Origin: Prevotella sp.
Lineage (GTDB): Bacteria > Bacteroidota > Bacteroidia > Bacteroidales > Bacteroidaceae
Reading direction: 5' to 3'
DNA: 64,000 bases
NCBI GenBank assembly: GCA_017410365.1
Contig: JAFQQY010000046.1
Span: 1 to 64,000 of the forward strand
Shown here: piece after piece, positions 20,979 through 49,287 of the stretch
Layout: each line of letters begins with the position of its first letter
How positions within the stretch are numbered: position 1 is the first letter of the stretch
Notes under the pieces: generated by a model
Seen by the model: the letters and a program-made list of their open reading frames with translations, nothing else
Databases searched by the model: none
What the model was told of the DNA's origin: nothing
Program-made: the position numbers and the translations under genes

Positions 20979-22556
20979 TTAAATCTCTCTATGCACTTCA
21001 TGCCCCTCAACGTATATAGCGCTGAACGGACGGGCTGGGCAGAGGTGCTCGCATGCTCCACAGCCGATACACTTCTCTTCGTTGACAGCTGGCACCTGTG
21101 GCGATTTCTCGTCGTTTGGGTCTGAAGGCACCATTGTAATGGCACCTGCAGGACAGCGACGGGCACACAAACCACATCTGTCGCCCTTTGTCAATGGTAT
21201 ACAGTTTTCTTTAACCCATACCGCATGGCCAACCTGTGTTGATGATTTTGTCTCGATTGTTATAGGTTTAATGGCACCTGTAGGACACACTTCTGAACAT
21301 TTTGTACATTCCGGTCGGCAGTAGCCGCGCTCAAAAGACATCTCAGGTTGCATAAAAGTACGTAAGTCGTCAGAAGGACGCAACACGTCATTAGGACATA
21401 CAGATACGCACAACTGGCAACCGGTACAGTGGGCGTCCATGTTTCTCAGCCCAACAGCACCAGCCGGCACAATCGGAGTCTTGCGTTCTGGTATCTTCTT
21501 GTCTTCGATAATGGCCAGTCCGCCATCAACAGTCTTTTCCTGTGCTTTCAGGATAGTGCTGCCGGTGAATAAAGCCATGAGGGAAACGAAACTGCGGCGG
21601 GAGAGACGGCTGATATTTGATTCAGTTGACGAGTTGACGAGTTGACAAGTTGACAAGTTGTTGGTACAAGAAGCTATTGTCTGCACTCCTTCACTCCTGC
21701 ACTCCTTCACTCCTGTAGATGACTCCTTCACTCCTTCACTCCTTCTATAATTATAAGAAATTGCCCCCTTGTTGCACTTGCCAATGCAGTCCATGCAAAC
21801 AACGCAGCGGCTGTAGTCGATGGTGTGGGTCTTAGGGTCGATGCACGAAGCCTTGCAGTTGCGTGCACATAGTCCACAGCTGTTGCACTTATCGGTGTTT
21901 ATGACAGGCTTGAGCAGCGAGAACCTTGAAATGAAACTAAGGAAGGTGCCCACAGGACAGATAGTGTTGCAGTATGTTCTTCCGCCTCTCCATGCCAGAA
22001 TGGCTATGATGATGAGGCTAGCGGCGGCAACGATGAGCACAGGCATGCCTTTCAACCAAATCTCTTTTTCGTAGAATGCATAGCTGTTGGCGCTTTCTGC
22101 CCATTCTGCCAGAATATTGTTGCCCCATTGCCATGCCGGAGCAAGTATGCTATGTGCTATTCTGCCGTAGATGCTATACGGCTCAATTAATAATGCGATA
22201 GAGGCAAAGCCCGTTACCAGTCCAATGATAAATACTCCGAGCATTATGTATCTCAGAATATTCTTCGCAGGCGAATAGCTGTATCTGTTTTTCTTTGTTT
22301 TCTTTCCCAACCATCCGAAGAAGTCCTGCATTATGCCAAGTGGGCAAATGACAGAGCAATAGATGCGTCCGAAGAGTAAGGTTAGTACTATTAATGCGAT
22401 TATGACAACGGCATTCAATGCCAATACGGCAGGTACAAACTGTACCTTTGCCATCCACCCCAACCAACCGTGAATAGTTCCGGTGAAGTCGAGAAATAAA
22501 ATTGTTGTGCCAATCCAAAAGACGATGGCCAACAGTAGTCTGATTTTCTTTAACAT
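20979..22556 (-). CDS. NapH/NapG-like membrane and periplasmic Fe-S protein
   Basis: A 525-residue two-part electron-transfer protein. Residues 1-270 resemble NapH: several membrane helices, two Cys motifs at membrane edges (CSVICPLG, CNTICPVG) and two 4Fe-4S sites (CNSCGLCARNCKASC, CVVCMDCIGKC). Residues about 320-525 resemble NapG: an internal twin-arginine segment (SRRSFVSLMALF) followed by several more Cys clusters (CTGCQLCVSVCP, CTKCSEVCP, CGLCARRCP, CIGCGACEHLCP). The linker at about 270-312 is encoded by the octanucleotide repeat element described separately. It may feed electrons to the downstream Tat-exported reductase. Confidence 0.82.
   Translation of the reverse strand: MLKKIRLLLAIVFWIGTTILFLDFTGTIHGWLGWMAKVQFVPAVLALNAVVIIALIVLTLLFGRIYCSVICPLGIMQDFFGWLGKKTKKNRYSYSPAKNILRYIMLGVFIIGLVTGFASIALLIEPYSIYGRIAHSILAPAWQWGNNILAEWAESANSYAFYEKEIWLKGMPVLIVAAASLIIIAILAWRGGRTYCNTICPVGTFLSFISRFSLLKPVINTDKCNSCGLCARNCKASCIDPKTHTIDYSRCVVCMDCIGKCNKGAISYNYRRSEGVKESSTGVKECRSEGVQTIASCTNNLSTCQLVNSSTESNISRLSRRSFVSLMALFTGSTILKAQEKTVDGGLAIIEDKKIPERKTPIVPAGAVGLRNMDAHCTGCQLCVSVCPNDVLRPSDDLRTFMQPEMSFERGYCRPECTKCSEVCPTGAIKPITIETKSSTQVGHAVWVKENCIPLTKGDRCGLCARRCPAGAITMVPSDPNDEKSPQVPAVNEEKCIGCGACEHLCPARPFSAIYVEGHEVHREI
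21623..21753 (-). repeat. Octanucleotide composite repeat, copy 1, in coding sequence
   Basis: On the coding strand: two GGAGTGAA units, a 13-nt GGAGTCATCTACA, four GGAGTGNA octamers, GACAATAGC, TTCTTGTACC, then four AACTYGTC octamers and AACTGAA. It encodes the linker (GVQTIAS, STCQLVNSSTES) between the membrane half and the Tat-like ferredoxin half. Confidence 0.85.
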
Positions 22557-29377: not shown

Positions 29378-32300
29378 ATGATGAAAACGTGGAAACAGAA
29401 TATGGAGGAAACCAAGCAACATTATGTTGACTGGTGGAATCACAAGGGCGTGGTGGTGAATATGTGGGAGCACTTCCAGCAGGGAGTAAAACCGCATGCC
29501 GATGTGCCGATGCCTAACGAACCGAAGGACCTCAACCAGAAGTGGTTCGATGCGAAATGGCGTGCTGATTATCTCGATTGGTATGTCGCTCACAGTTCGC
29601 TCAAGGCCGACATGCTGCCAGTGGCCAACACGCAACTCGGTCCTGGTTCGCTCGCAGCCATACTCGGTGGTGTGTTTGAAGGAGGTGAGGATACCATCTG
29701 GATTCACCCTAATCCAAACTATACCGACGAGATAACCTTCGACGAGAACAATGCCAACTGGTTGCTTCACAAGGAACTGCTGAAGGCGTGCAAGGCTAAG
29801 GCACAGGGCAACTACTATGTGGGCATGCCCGACCTCATGGAGGGTATGGACGTGCTGGCGGCTATCAAGGGAACCGACAAGGTGCTGCTCGACACGGTGA
29901 TGCAGCCAGAGGTGTTGGAGCGACAGATGCAACAGATAAACGACATCTACTTCCGCGTGTTCGACGAACTATACGATATCATCCGTGAGGGCGACGAGAT
30001 GGCTTTCTGCTATTTCTCAGCATGGGCACCGGGCAAGATGACCAAGCTTCAGTGCGACATATCTACGATGATAAACGAAGACGACTATCGCCGCTTCGCT
30101 CTGCCGTTCCTCCGCCAGCAGTGCCAGAAGATTGACTATACTCTCTATCATCTCGATGGAGTGGGGGCACAGCATCATCTGCCGGCATTGCTTGAGATTG
30201 ATGAGCTAAATGCCATACAGTGGACACCAGGTGTGGGTGAACCGCAAGGTGGCTCGCCAAAGTGGTACGACCTCTACCGCCGTATCCTTAATGCAGGCAA
30301 GAGCATCATGGCATGCTGGGTTACTCTCGACGAACTGCGTCCGCTGCTTGAGAATATCGGTACCGATGGCGTACATCTGGAGATGGACTTCCACAACGAA
30401 GAGGAGGTGGAGCAGGCACTGGAGATTGTTGAGCAGTGTAAGCAGACTCAAAGGAGTGTAGGTGTTCAGGAGTCACCTTCAGGAGTTCAGGAGTTCAGGA
30501 GTTCAGGAGTTCAGACAATAGCTTCTTGTACAAATAACTCGTCAACTCGTCAACTTGTCAACTCGTCAACAGAAAGTACCAACTCGTCAACTTGTCAACT
30601 TGTCAACTCGTCAACTGAAGGTACCAACTTGTCAACTCGTCAACTCGTCAACTTGTCAACTGACCAACAGGTCATCCAAATCATTGAATCAATAGAAAAC
30701 GAAGATAATATGTCAAACAATCCATCAACCCTTATCTCGCCTATCCAGACTATCGCCCAGCAACGTGTGCTGGTGCTCGACGGTGCTATGGGCACAATGA
30801 TACAGCGTTACAACCTTGCAGAAGCCGACTTCCGTGGCGATCGTTTTGCCAACCACGGTTGTGAGTTGCGCGGATGCAACGACCTGCTCTGCATCACTCG
30901 TCCTGATGTGGTGAGCGAAATCCACCGCAAATATCTGGAGGCGGGTGCCGATATCATCGAGACAAACACGTTCAATGCTCAGCGCATATCTATGGCCGAC
31001 TTCCGACTGGAGGCTGAGTGTCGTGAGATAAACCTTGCTGCTGCAAAACTGGCACGCACCTTGGCAGACGAATATACAAAGAAGAATCCGCAGAAACCGC
31101 GCTTTGTGGCTGGTTCTGTGGGACCGACATCCAAGACTTGCAGCATCATGACCGACAATACCCAACCAGGTTGGAACACCTTCGGCTATGGCAAACTGCT
31201 TGAGGCTTATAAGGAGCAGATGGAGGCATTGCTTGAGGGTGGCATTGACGTGCTGCTCATAGAGACCATCTTCGACACACTTAATGCAAAGGCAGCTATT
31301 GAAGCAGCAAATGCGGCTATGGCAAAGACAGGCAAGCAGGTGCCGCTGATGCTCAGTTTCAATGTTACTGGCAGCGAGGGCAGAAACATGCTTGGACAGT
31401 CAATAGAGGAGTTTATAGCTACTCTCGACAAGAAGAACATCTTCTCTGTTGGTGTCAACTGCATAGGCGATGTGGCACAGATTACTCCGCTCATCGACCG
31501 TCTCGGCGCTATCGACGGACTTAGCATCAGTCTTTATCCTAATGCCGGTCAGCCAGACATCAATGGCAACTACTCACAGACACCAGAAATGATGCAGCGT
31601 GCCGTATGGCCAATGCTTGAATGGCATCGCCTGAACATTATCGGCGGTTGCTGTGGTACAACCAACGAGCATATAGCTGCTATCTCTCGTCTTCTCCAAC
31701 CTGTTGATGGTTTCATGCTTTCTCCGCATAAGAGTGGGGTGGCTGCACCGGTAGGGGTTCAGGAGTTGTCTTCAGGAGTGAAGGAGTTTAGGAGTTTAGG
31801 AGTTCAGACATTAGCATCTGAATCAAGCAACTCGTCAACTCGTCAACTTGTCAACTCGTCAACTGATAACTCCCTCTTCGACGCCATCGTAGGCGGTAAG
31901 GCCAATGAAGCGGTGACTGCCACTAAGGCAGCTGTTGAACAAGGCGTTGCTCCGCAGGATATCATCAACGGTCAGATGGTTAAGGCTATGGCAGAAGTTG
32001 GTCAGCGCTTTGAGGAAGGCAAGGCATTCGTGCCACAGCTGTTGATGGCTGGTCGTGCGATGAAGGCGGGACTTGAAATACTCAAACCGCTTATGGCAGG
32101 CGATACATCTACGTCTATCGGCAAGATTATCATCGGTACGGTGAAGGGCGACCTGCACGACATCGGCAAGAACCTTGTAGCGTCAATGCTTGAGGGATGT
32201 GGCTTTGAGGTCATCAACATCGGTATCGATGTTACCAGCGAGCAGTTTGTTGAGGCTATCAAAGAGCACAATGCCGACATCCTATGTATGAGTGCTCTGC

Positions 32301-32491
32301 TCACCACCACCATGACCTACATGCCAGAGGTTCTTCAGGCTCTTGAAGCTGCCGGCATCCGCGACAAGGTGAAGGTTATGATTGGCGGTGCTCCTATCAC
32401 CCAGGCCTTCGCCGATGAGATTGGTGCCGACGGCTATAGCGACAATGCCAACAGTGCCGTTGCTTTGGCCAAGAGATTGATGGGCAAGTGA
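29378..32491 (+). CDS. Fusion of URO-D-like methyltransferase, homocysteine methyltransferase and corrinoid protein
   Basis: A 1037-residue protein in three parts. Residues 1-357 resemble the uroporphyrinogen-decarboxylase superfamily, close to corrinoid-system proteins such as TMCP2; a clear HxC zinc motif is missing. Residues 445-790 are the homocysteine-binding module of cobalamin-dependent methionine synthase (VLDGAMGTMIQ, ETNTFNAQ, zinc Cys in GGCCGTT). Residues 831-1037 are a corrinoid-binding protein with cap helices and the DLHDIGKN cobalamin His motif. The methyltetrahydrofolate and reactivation domains of MetH are absent. The likely role is methyl transfer from an unknown donor via cobalamin to homocysteine. 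The linkers at about 358-430 and 791-830 are octanucleotide repeat copies. Met445 (ATG 30710) could be an internal start. Confidence 0.82.
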   Translation: MMKTWKQNMEETKQHYVDWWNHKGVVVNMWEHFQQGVKPHADVPMPNEPKDLNQKWFDAKWRADYLDWYVAHSSLKADMLPVANTQLGPGSLAAILGGVFEGGEDTIWIHPNPNYTDEITFDENNANWLLHKELLKACKAKAQGNYYVGMPDLMEGMDVLAAIKGTDKVLLDTVMQPEVLERQMQQINDIYFRVFDELYDIIREGDEMAFCYFSAWAPGKMTKLQCDISTMINEDDYRRFALPFLRQQCQKIDYTLYHLDGVGAQHHLPALLEIDELNAIQWTPGVGEPQGGSPKWYDLYRRILNAGKSIMACWVTLDELRPLLENIGTDGVHLEMDFHNEEEVEQALEIVEQCKQTQRSVGVQESPSGVQEFRSSGVQTIASCTNNSSTRQLVNSSTESTNSSTCQLVNSSTEGTNLSTRQLVNLSTDQQVIQIIESIENEDNMSNNPSTLISPIQTIAQQRVLVLDGAMGTMIQRYNLAEADFRGDRFANHGCELRGCNDLLCITRPDVVSEIHRKYLEAGADIIETNTFNAQRISMADFRLEAECREINLAAAKLARTLADEYTKKNPQKPRFVAGSVGPTSKTCSIMTDNTQPGWNTFGYGKLLEAYKEQMEALLEGGIDVLLIETIFDTLNAKAAIEAANAAMAKTGKQVPLMLSFNVTGSEGRNMLGQSIEEFIATLDKKNIFSVGVNCIGDVAQITPLIDRLGAIDGLSISLYPNAGQPDINGNYSQTPEMMQRAVWPMLEWHRLNIIGGCCGTTNEHIAAISRLLQPVDGFMLSPHKSGVAAPVGVQELSSGVKEFRSLGVQTLASESSNSSTRQLVNSSTDNSLFDAIVGGKANEAVTATKAAVEQGVAPQDIINGQMVKAMAEVGQRFEEGKAFVPQLLMAGRAMKAGLEILKPLMAGDTSTSIGKIIIGTVKGDLHDIGKNLVASMLEGCGFEVINIGIDVTSEQFVEAIKEHNADILCMSALLTTTMTYMPEVLQALEAAGIRDKVKVMIGGAPITQAFADEIGADGYSDNANSAVALAKRLMGK
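30452..30665 (+). repeat. Octanucleotide composite repeat, copy 2, in coding sequence
   Basis: A 13-nt GGAGTCACCTTCA, four GGAGTTCA octamers, GACAATAGC, TTCTTGTAC, then three blocks of exactly four AACTYGTC octamers separated by 13-nt AACWGAARGTACC spacers. It is in frame and encodes the linker after the URO-D-like domain. Confidence 0.9.
31751..31867 (+). repeat. Octanucleotide composite repeat, copy 3, in coding sequence
   Basis: A 13-nt GGAGTTGTCTTCA, four GGAGTNNA octamers, GACATTAGC, then four AACTYGTC octamers and AACTGA. In frame, it encodes the linker (GVQTLAS, STRQLVNSSTD) before the corrinoid domain. Confidence 0.85.
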
Positions 32492-48856: not shown

Positions 48857-49287
48857 TGTTTTTTTGAGTTTATAAGTTTAGAAGTTGTCGCTCGCTTTGC
48901 TCGCTGAGAAGTTAGAAGACGGCCTCACCCCCGACTCCTCTCCAAAGGGCGAGGGGAGTAGCAAGCAAACTTTAATCTAACTCAGGGAGTTTAGGAGTTC
49001 AGGAGTGTAGGAGTGTAGGAGTGTAGACAATAGTAGGGCAAGCTTATTCATGTTTTCATCCCCCTCTAACTCCCCCTTTCCAAAGGGGAGCACAGTTTGA
49101 TTTGCATTCAATCCCTCATCTTTAAACTCTCATCTTTCATCTAAGTCAGGGAGTATAGGAGTGTAGGAGTGCAGACAATAGCAGGGCAAGCAAACTTTAA
49201 TCCCTAATCTCTCATCTTTCATCCATTCACGCAATCCCTCATCTCCAAACTCTCATCGCTCATCTATTCCCTCCCCCAAGGGGGAGG
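48857..49287. repeat. Repeat-filled gap: octamer half-elements and REP-like palindromes
   Basis: Two half-copies of the octanucleotide element occur, 48982-49043 (five GGAGTNNA units then GACAATAG) and 49144-49200 (three units then GACAATAGC), both leading into AGGGCAAGC. They are separated by REP-like CCCCTTTCCAAAGGGG palindromes and CTCATCTTTCATC-type repeats. GCAAGCAAACTTTAATC occurs twice. No gene is visible. Confidence 0.8.

Follow-up and report, generated by a model that had tools for sequence, protein, structure and literature searches.

The three in-frame copies of an octamer element that were read directly in a 64,000-nt stretch of Prevotella sp. DNA (the window), all at linkers of two multidomain proteins, probably belong to a dispersed, word-built repeat family of the hairpin type, with a purine arm and a pyrimidine arm, which is similar in kind to the Rickettsia palindromic elements (RPE). 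Its units are dispersed and their frames are open, copies lie inside domain matches, the words are lineage-specific, and the same loops have been used repeatedly. The family occurs in frame inside ordinary conserved genes, and all in-gene runs of adjacent octamers are in sense. We propose that units copied into genes would persist only in, or in place of, a tolerant loop or linker with the frame left open, that the host would translate the persisting units as extra residues, and that selection would remove insertions that bear stops or break the fold.

The common architecture described in the earlier note was recovered by direct reading of all three copies: a 13-nt leader (GGAGTCATCTACA in copy 1, GGAGTCACCTTCA in copy 2 and GGAGTTGTCTTCA in copy 3), four GGAGTNNA octamers, GACAWTAGC, AACTYGTC octamers in fours, and an AACTGA or AACAGA end. 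Leaders were read directly, octamer arrays were placed by sequence and pattern search, and cores by sequence and core pattern search. Copy 1, on the minus strand, starts with two GGAGTGAA units followed by its leader (21714..21742), continues with the four GGAGTNNA octamers (21682..21713) and the core GACAATAGC (21673..21681), and closes with four AACTYGTC octamers and AACTGA (21622..21659). Copy 2, on the plus strand, has a leader region of GGAGTGTA, one degenerate unit GGTGTTCA and then the 13-nt leader (30453..30481), a purine arm of four GGAGTNNA octamers (30482..30513), the core GACAATAGC (30514..30522) and a pyrimidine arm that consists of three blocks of four AACTYGTC units with a 45-nt period and an AACTGA end (30536..30663). 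In copy 3, also on the plus strand, the leader (31762..31774) is followed by four GGAGTNNA octamers (31775..31806), the core GACATTAGC (31807..31815) and four AACTYGTC octamers with AACTGA (31829..31866). Two G-type arrays with the cores GACAATAGT and GACAATAGC (48986..49182, plus strand) are intergenic members of the family. Within the window, AACTYGTCAAC matched 22 times (0.04 expected) and the three-unit GGAGTNNA pattern, at up to two mismatches, 12 times (0.00 expected). A single reading phase for the three copies was borne out for their four-unit arrays, and in copy 2 the remaining two frames are indeed closed, by the TAG in GACAATAGC and the TAA in AAATAAC, as read directly. The number of exactly four units applies to most runs and not to all of them: inside genes it was found in 19 of 25 GGAGT (G-type) and 17 of 28 AACTYGTC (A-type) runs, and between genes in 18/39 and 7/41, respectively.

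Copies 2 and 3 reside in an open reading frame of 1037 aa (29378..32491, plus strand) that comprises an N-terminal part, a homocysteine S-methyltransferase domain and corrinoid (B12) domains, and copy 1 in a frame of 525 aa (20979..22556, minus strand) for a NapH-like and then NapG-like ferredoxin protein. According to the Pfam positions in the 1037-aa protein, copy 3 is located between S-methyl_trans (465-772) and B12-binding_2 (831-903), and copy 2 before residue 465. The claim that every copy sits at a domain junction thus holds within the window; outside it, copies were found inside single domain matches. In the 1037-aa protein, the N-terminal 355 aa (29378-30442) matched no Pfam family and no PDB chain by sequence search; this part, which presumably resembles methyltransferases of the uroporphyrinogen-decarboxylase type, is well conserved, at about 75-85% identity in the orthologues found. 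Named records with relatives of the protein came from Prevotella, Prevotellaceae, Bacteroides, Bacteroidaceae and Bacteroidales MAGs, with one distant match in Melainabacteria.

In the genome of the window (3.28 Mb in 55 contigs, 89.4% complete), the element is enriched genome-wide, with 148 overlapping matches of the AACTYGTCAACTYGTCAAC pattern and none of its reversed control; the core GGAGTNNAGACAWTAGC, at up to two mismatches, matched 66 times (control, 8). A survey of 474,358 bases, made up of 68 stretches around copies and the window, revealed 128 array clusters. Copy 3 aligned to the copy in a MalQ gene at 90.6% identity over 96 columns and copy 2 to that in a GH43 gene at 91.4% over 93 columns, and both alignments stop at the element edges. 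A unit of about 95 nt (four GGAGTNNA, GACAWTAGC, four AACTYGTC, AACTGA) therefore recurs at unrelated loci, with similarity ending at the edges of the unit. A local origin, in which existing low-complexity linkers grew into tandem octamers by replication slippage and nothing moved from one locus to another, would agree with the tandem arrays of the arms, with the 45-nt internal repeat of copy 2 and with unit numbers that differ among loci. However, a composite with a non-tandem core that unrelated loci share (about 91% identity, 93-96 columns) argues against it, as does the excess of core matches over the control (66 versus 8), and we consider such an origin unlikely, although slippage probably still shapes the number of units.

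By a simple ORF-based gene call, crude enough to have wrongly scored a MenC-type copy (L092) as intergenic, all 53 in-gene runs of adjacent octamers are in sense (28/28 for AACTYGTC, 25/25 for GGAGT), and a looser cluster test gave 38 sense and two antisense read-through frames. One of the latter, in L103, directly precedes a start codon that belongs to the opposite strand; the other is the purine arm GACGAGTT of a copy in a GH2-type gene (L144), from which it follows that a purine arm of that kind is possible within genes. All three sense frames of an AACTYGTC array are open, while its complement carries one TGA per octamer, so that three antisense octamers close every frame. Since stops are confined to antisense AACTYGTC, part of the sense bias is explained, and the orientation GGAGTNNA-then-AACTYGTC is favoured in genes.

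Copies with at least 40 codons on either side were found in 32 sense ORFs. Pfam scans covered 30 of these, a second frame in L094 and a 117-aa frame in L142 being omitted as probably spurious, and gave matches in 28. The hosts include MenC-like, DnaG-type zinc ribbon, MutS2-like, Mfd-like, Dus, RNase R and MalQ (GH77) proteins, and furthermore inositol phosphatase, ABC-F-like, HemN-like, Kdo transferase, several glycosidases, a TonB-dependent receptor and others; the names Mfd, RadA, MutS2, ABC-F, MalQ and Kdo transferase are our interpretation of the Pfam matches. In 12 of the 30 ORFs thus scanned, about 14 copies fall within a single Pfam domain match, namely Dus (at the match edge), GH43_C2, inositol phosphatase (twice), the GH2 and rhamnosidase N-terminal domains, the TonB barrel, GH77 (twice), RNB, radical SAM, cytochrome c assembly, GH106 and SBD_N; the others are between or outside matches. 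As in-gene copies were detected by their open frames, insertions that split genes would be undercounted.

Comparison with solved chains illustrates how the copies are accommodated. In RNase R, 34 query residues stand against 3 in the solved chain and the alignment continues on both sides; relative to its genus neighbours, the copy is no clean insertion, as it takes the place of the loop that they usually have, the net gain being about 19 residues (98 versus 79). In the inositol phosphatase, 42 and 59 residues stand against 6 and 6, the flanks of the first insert aligning weakly (-0.1 and 13 bits), and the two inserts flank the WIIDPIDGT motif. Judging by the open frames, the in-gene copies would be translated as extra residues. 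An empty site at nucleotide resolution was not found among the relatives fetched, the best of which were 64% (1037-aa protein) and 76% (RNase R) identical.

The same sites carry other words in other genomes. At the NapH-NapG junction, of which 1 of 30 was unparsed, three relatives (L301, L302, L304) have AGCAGACR-like words and then a pyrimidine arm, L303 and L312 (and L313, as judged by its peptide) have TAGTNNN-type words, and L305, L307, L311, L320, L323 and L328 have G+C-rich palindromes that are read in frame. The RNase R loop is occupied by the window family in the window's genome and, among 11 parsed relatives, by other words in three (L267, L274, L279), 18 of the 30 loops being unparsed. 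In-gene AGCAGACR arrays, a word that is stop-free on either strand by direct reading, were found as purine words followed by pyrimidine words in six copies, in RadA-, ThiD-ThiE-, epimerase-, sulfatase-, histidine-kinase- and NapH-NapG-type proteins; these six were judged real by eye, which was also how antisense and short frames that run through the arrays were discarded. The array in the ThiD-ThiE fusion protein (L296, G325:C3) lies where its two enzymes meet. Nonamer arrays of the ACTAGTNNN / CCTAGTNNN type were also observed in frame at linkers of several species (L191, L210, L214, L221, L312); nine being a multiple of three, such arrays hold one codon frame. Thus, the same loops appear to have been invaded independently in different species, each with its own words.

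The search of related genomes that the earlier note had suggested did detect the octamer, as AACTYGTC x3 in 23 of 150 genus genomes including the window's own. GCAGACR x3 was found in 4 of the 150, none of which also has AACTYGTC x3. The AACTYGTC word was present in 18 of 251 genomes in a family sample and, in a phylum sample of 296 genomes, in none other than the window's own. In other genomes of the family, 5 of 26 distinct AACTYGTC arrays are in sense ORFs, one of which (L171) may be a spacer that is read through, and none is antisense; copies occur within the alanyl-tRNA synthetase domain in another genus, and an AcrB-type protein has three. One genome of the same genus, G333, has 108 AACTYGTC x3 matches compared to 73 in that of the window. 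Its AACTGA-ended form matched only three times, within 112 bases, and G333 is thus no replication of the family. Carriage by phages was considered and set aside: AACTYGTC x3 arrays were observed on five viral contigs (L330-L334), and three GGAGTNNA units with the core on none.

It might be argued that a useful Ser/Thr/Gln-rich peptide was recruited for the properties it lends to the protein, as the peptides are hydrophilic and suited to linkers, and as nearly a single phase of the AACTYGTC array is used even though all three are open. Direct reading indicates, however, that stops in the core and spacer account for at least part of this phase bias, and copies that also lie within catalytic domain matches, together with different peptides at the same site in other species, make such recruitment improbable as the origin of the dispersed family.

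The earlier note had inferred that a repeat spreading between genes may become a readable linker and fuse its neighbours. Its first part stands, in that a repeat family found between genes also becomes readable protein; its second part does not. Fusion by an intergenic element that lost its stops, so that copies mark fusion points, would be in line with the position of the window copies between domains, with the intergenic copies that fill stop-to-start spacers of neighbouring genes, and with the word array at the ThiD-ThiE junction in another species. Of neither window protein, however, did we find orthologues that are split around the element, nor was fusion limited to genes that carry it; for both, orthologues are fused without it, which is the main outcome that the earlier note had named as refuting its inference. 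The 1037-aa protein was followed in 37 orthologue loci, 8 named and 29 from the genus (L190 and L202 being one genome), after L197, which is without the N-terminal part, and L198, at 35% identity, had been excluded from ten named loci. The N-terminal part and a later domain share one open frame in 36 of the 37, the remaining one stopping at a contig edge, and junction 2 is spanned, as judged by motif, in 32. AACTYGTC or GGAGTNNA arrays inside the gene were found in 0/37 loci, and in L201 such arrays lie directly upstream of it. The linkers that were read (28/37) are ordinary or built of other words, and junction 1 was unparsed in 9 of 38 loci. More widely, 140 of 150 genus genomes gave a match, mostly to other methionine-synthase-type proteins, and at least 32 of the relatives listed have the N-terminal part and the remainder in one open frame. 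A match to the NapH-NapG protein was present in 90 of 100 genus genomes and reached E < 1e-90 in 69, counting the window's own; all 29 orthologues fetched are in one open frame (27 by motif, 2 by full-length match) and 0/29 have arrays inside the gene, an array pair in L328 being outside it. As both fusions are present without the element, neither depends on it. Fusion cannot be meant, either, for the roughly 14 copies in 12 ORFs that lie inside a single domain match. Fusion by the element was accordingly rejected for both window proteins, and we regard this reading as very improbable.

The second home of the dispersed family is the short stop-to-start spacer between genes. There, read in gene sense, the purine arm follows the stop codon and the pyrimidine arm, either AACTYGTC or TNNACTCC, comes ahead of the next start. 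The 41 AACTYGTC runs between genes comprise 28 in sense between co-directional genes, 10 that are antisense to both flanking genes, 2 divergent ones and 1 convergent; for the 39 GGAGT runs the counts are 4 co-directional, 3 divergent, 3 convergent, 22 antisense to both neighbours and 7 at stretch edges. Reading in gene sense accounts for most of these counts. A palindrome with a purine 5' arm gives purine-then-pyrimidine on both strands, and a separate sense-orientation rule for spacers was dropped for this reason.

Many spacer forms are hairpins, whereas the in-gene GGAGTNNA/AACTYGTC composites of the window's genome fold no clearly better than shuffles. Among short co-directional A-type spacers, 12 of 22 had z < -3 (median -3.3); the 13 in-gene composites had a median z of -0.86 and none below -2.0. 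Fourteen stretches folded singly included two spacers at -7.0 and -5.9 and five in-gene composites at about -2.4 to +1.7. It is plausible that folding inside genes is weak because the perfect partner arm, GACRAGTT, would bring a TGA in every octamer. At the NapH-NapG junction, z was below -2 in 12 of 29, all relatives, and +1.4 in the window's own. Compensatory pairing between the arms appeared strong in a first count and was rejected after a control with refolded shuffles, in which degenerate-base matching between the arms of the 9 hairpins that passed a two-arm filter was 0.78 compared to a shuffle mean of 0.74, with 34 of 100 shuffles as high. That the element is spliced out or bypassed by ribosomes and never reaches the protein, as hairpin-type repeats inside domains might suggest, is scarcely credible, as in-gene copies fold poorly and the frame is open in 32 ORFs, which removal would not need (open frames being also the detection criterion).

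Among known systems, the dispersed family is most reminiscent of RPE, which are described as small repeats that reside in spacers and in frame in many conserved unrelated genes, fall into several families, adopt stem-loop forms and are tolerated as inserts in proteins (PMC2229807, PMC10969869). The window family likewise occupies intergenic sites as well as in-frame positions in conserved protein genes. RPE are given as about 105-146 bp long (PMC2229807); the window-family unit aligns over 93-96 columns and is longer with its leader or extra blocks. As regards a long stem-loop, z was below -3 in 12/22 intergenic A-type spacers, below -2.0 in 0/13 in-gene composites, and below -2 in 12/29 NapH-NapG junctions, all of them in other species. 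In contrast to RPE, the arms are made of degenerate octamer words, the words vary among species, unrelated families occupy one and the same loop in different species, folding of the in-gene copies is weak in the window's genome, and the host is Prevotella-like and belongs to the Bacteroidales. The likeness to RPE would be one of kind only, and we claim neither membership nor descent. Bacterial MITEs with readable frames (Correia, 107 bp; ERIC; YPAL/RU-2) are likewise described as small and non-autonomous, mainly intergenic and sometimes fused in frame (PMC2229807), whereas terminal inverted repeats, TA ends, target duplication and a parental transposase were not identified for the window family. 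Porphyromonas gingivalis, also of the Bacteroidales, is the host of BrickBuilt. That repeat, too, has internal tandem units, but they are 23 nt long and it is described as always intergenic (PMC4596501), whereas the window family enters coding sequences. PARCEL repeats are also protein-coding and palindromic and are thought to be mobilised between genes; they are described as building tracts mostly of membrane or surface proteins (PMC2996958) and by this description are set apart from the window family, which forms inserts in ordinary enzymes. In the titles and abstract openings of the papers listed, mostly outside subscription journals, we found no report of this octamer family in Prevotella.

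Movement of the family would be replicative, and may most likely have proceeded either by copying as a non-autonomous element, with the enzyme provided in trans, or by recombination of hairpins with one another, a tentative reading to which we give somewhat less than an even chance. Mobilisation by a RAYT-type transposase, as for REP elements, was rejected, as PF01797 had no match in the window's genome (89.4% complete); as a control, the search gave matches in 5 of 14 genomes.

High-frequency insertion of repeats in frame into conserved proteins is best known from Rickettsia, according to PMC10969869, and the present family brings protein-invading repeats to a Prevotella-like gut genus, in RNase R and an Mfd-like protein and, among relatives, in RadA-like proteins and alanyl-tRNA synthetase. 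As different sequences occupy the same sites across species, loops and linkers could be compared over hundreds of genomes as repeated natural insertion experiments. The findings are also a warning that repeat-derived linkers can be mistaken for evidence of gene fusion. It might be speculated, albeit doubtfully, that the Prevotella group harbours an active and fast-changing protein-invading hairpin DNA, in which each lineage amplifies a few octamer or nonamer words of its own and places them in stop-to-start spacers, in purine and pyrimidine arms that often have four units, the same composites enter the same core-enzyme loops again with the frame kept, and a dedicated copying machinery periodically overwrites linkers genome-wide.

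Two further kinds of repeat were observed in in-gene stretches of the window's own genome (L092, L107, L112, L141, L153), where they lie in frame beside the octamer element in some of the ORFs: G+C-rich repeats that give LTPNPSPKGEG-like peptides, and CTCATCC-type words that read SSLIPHLSS.
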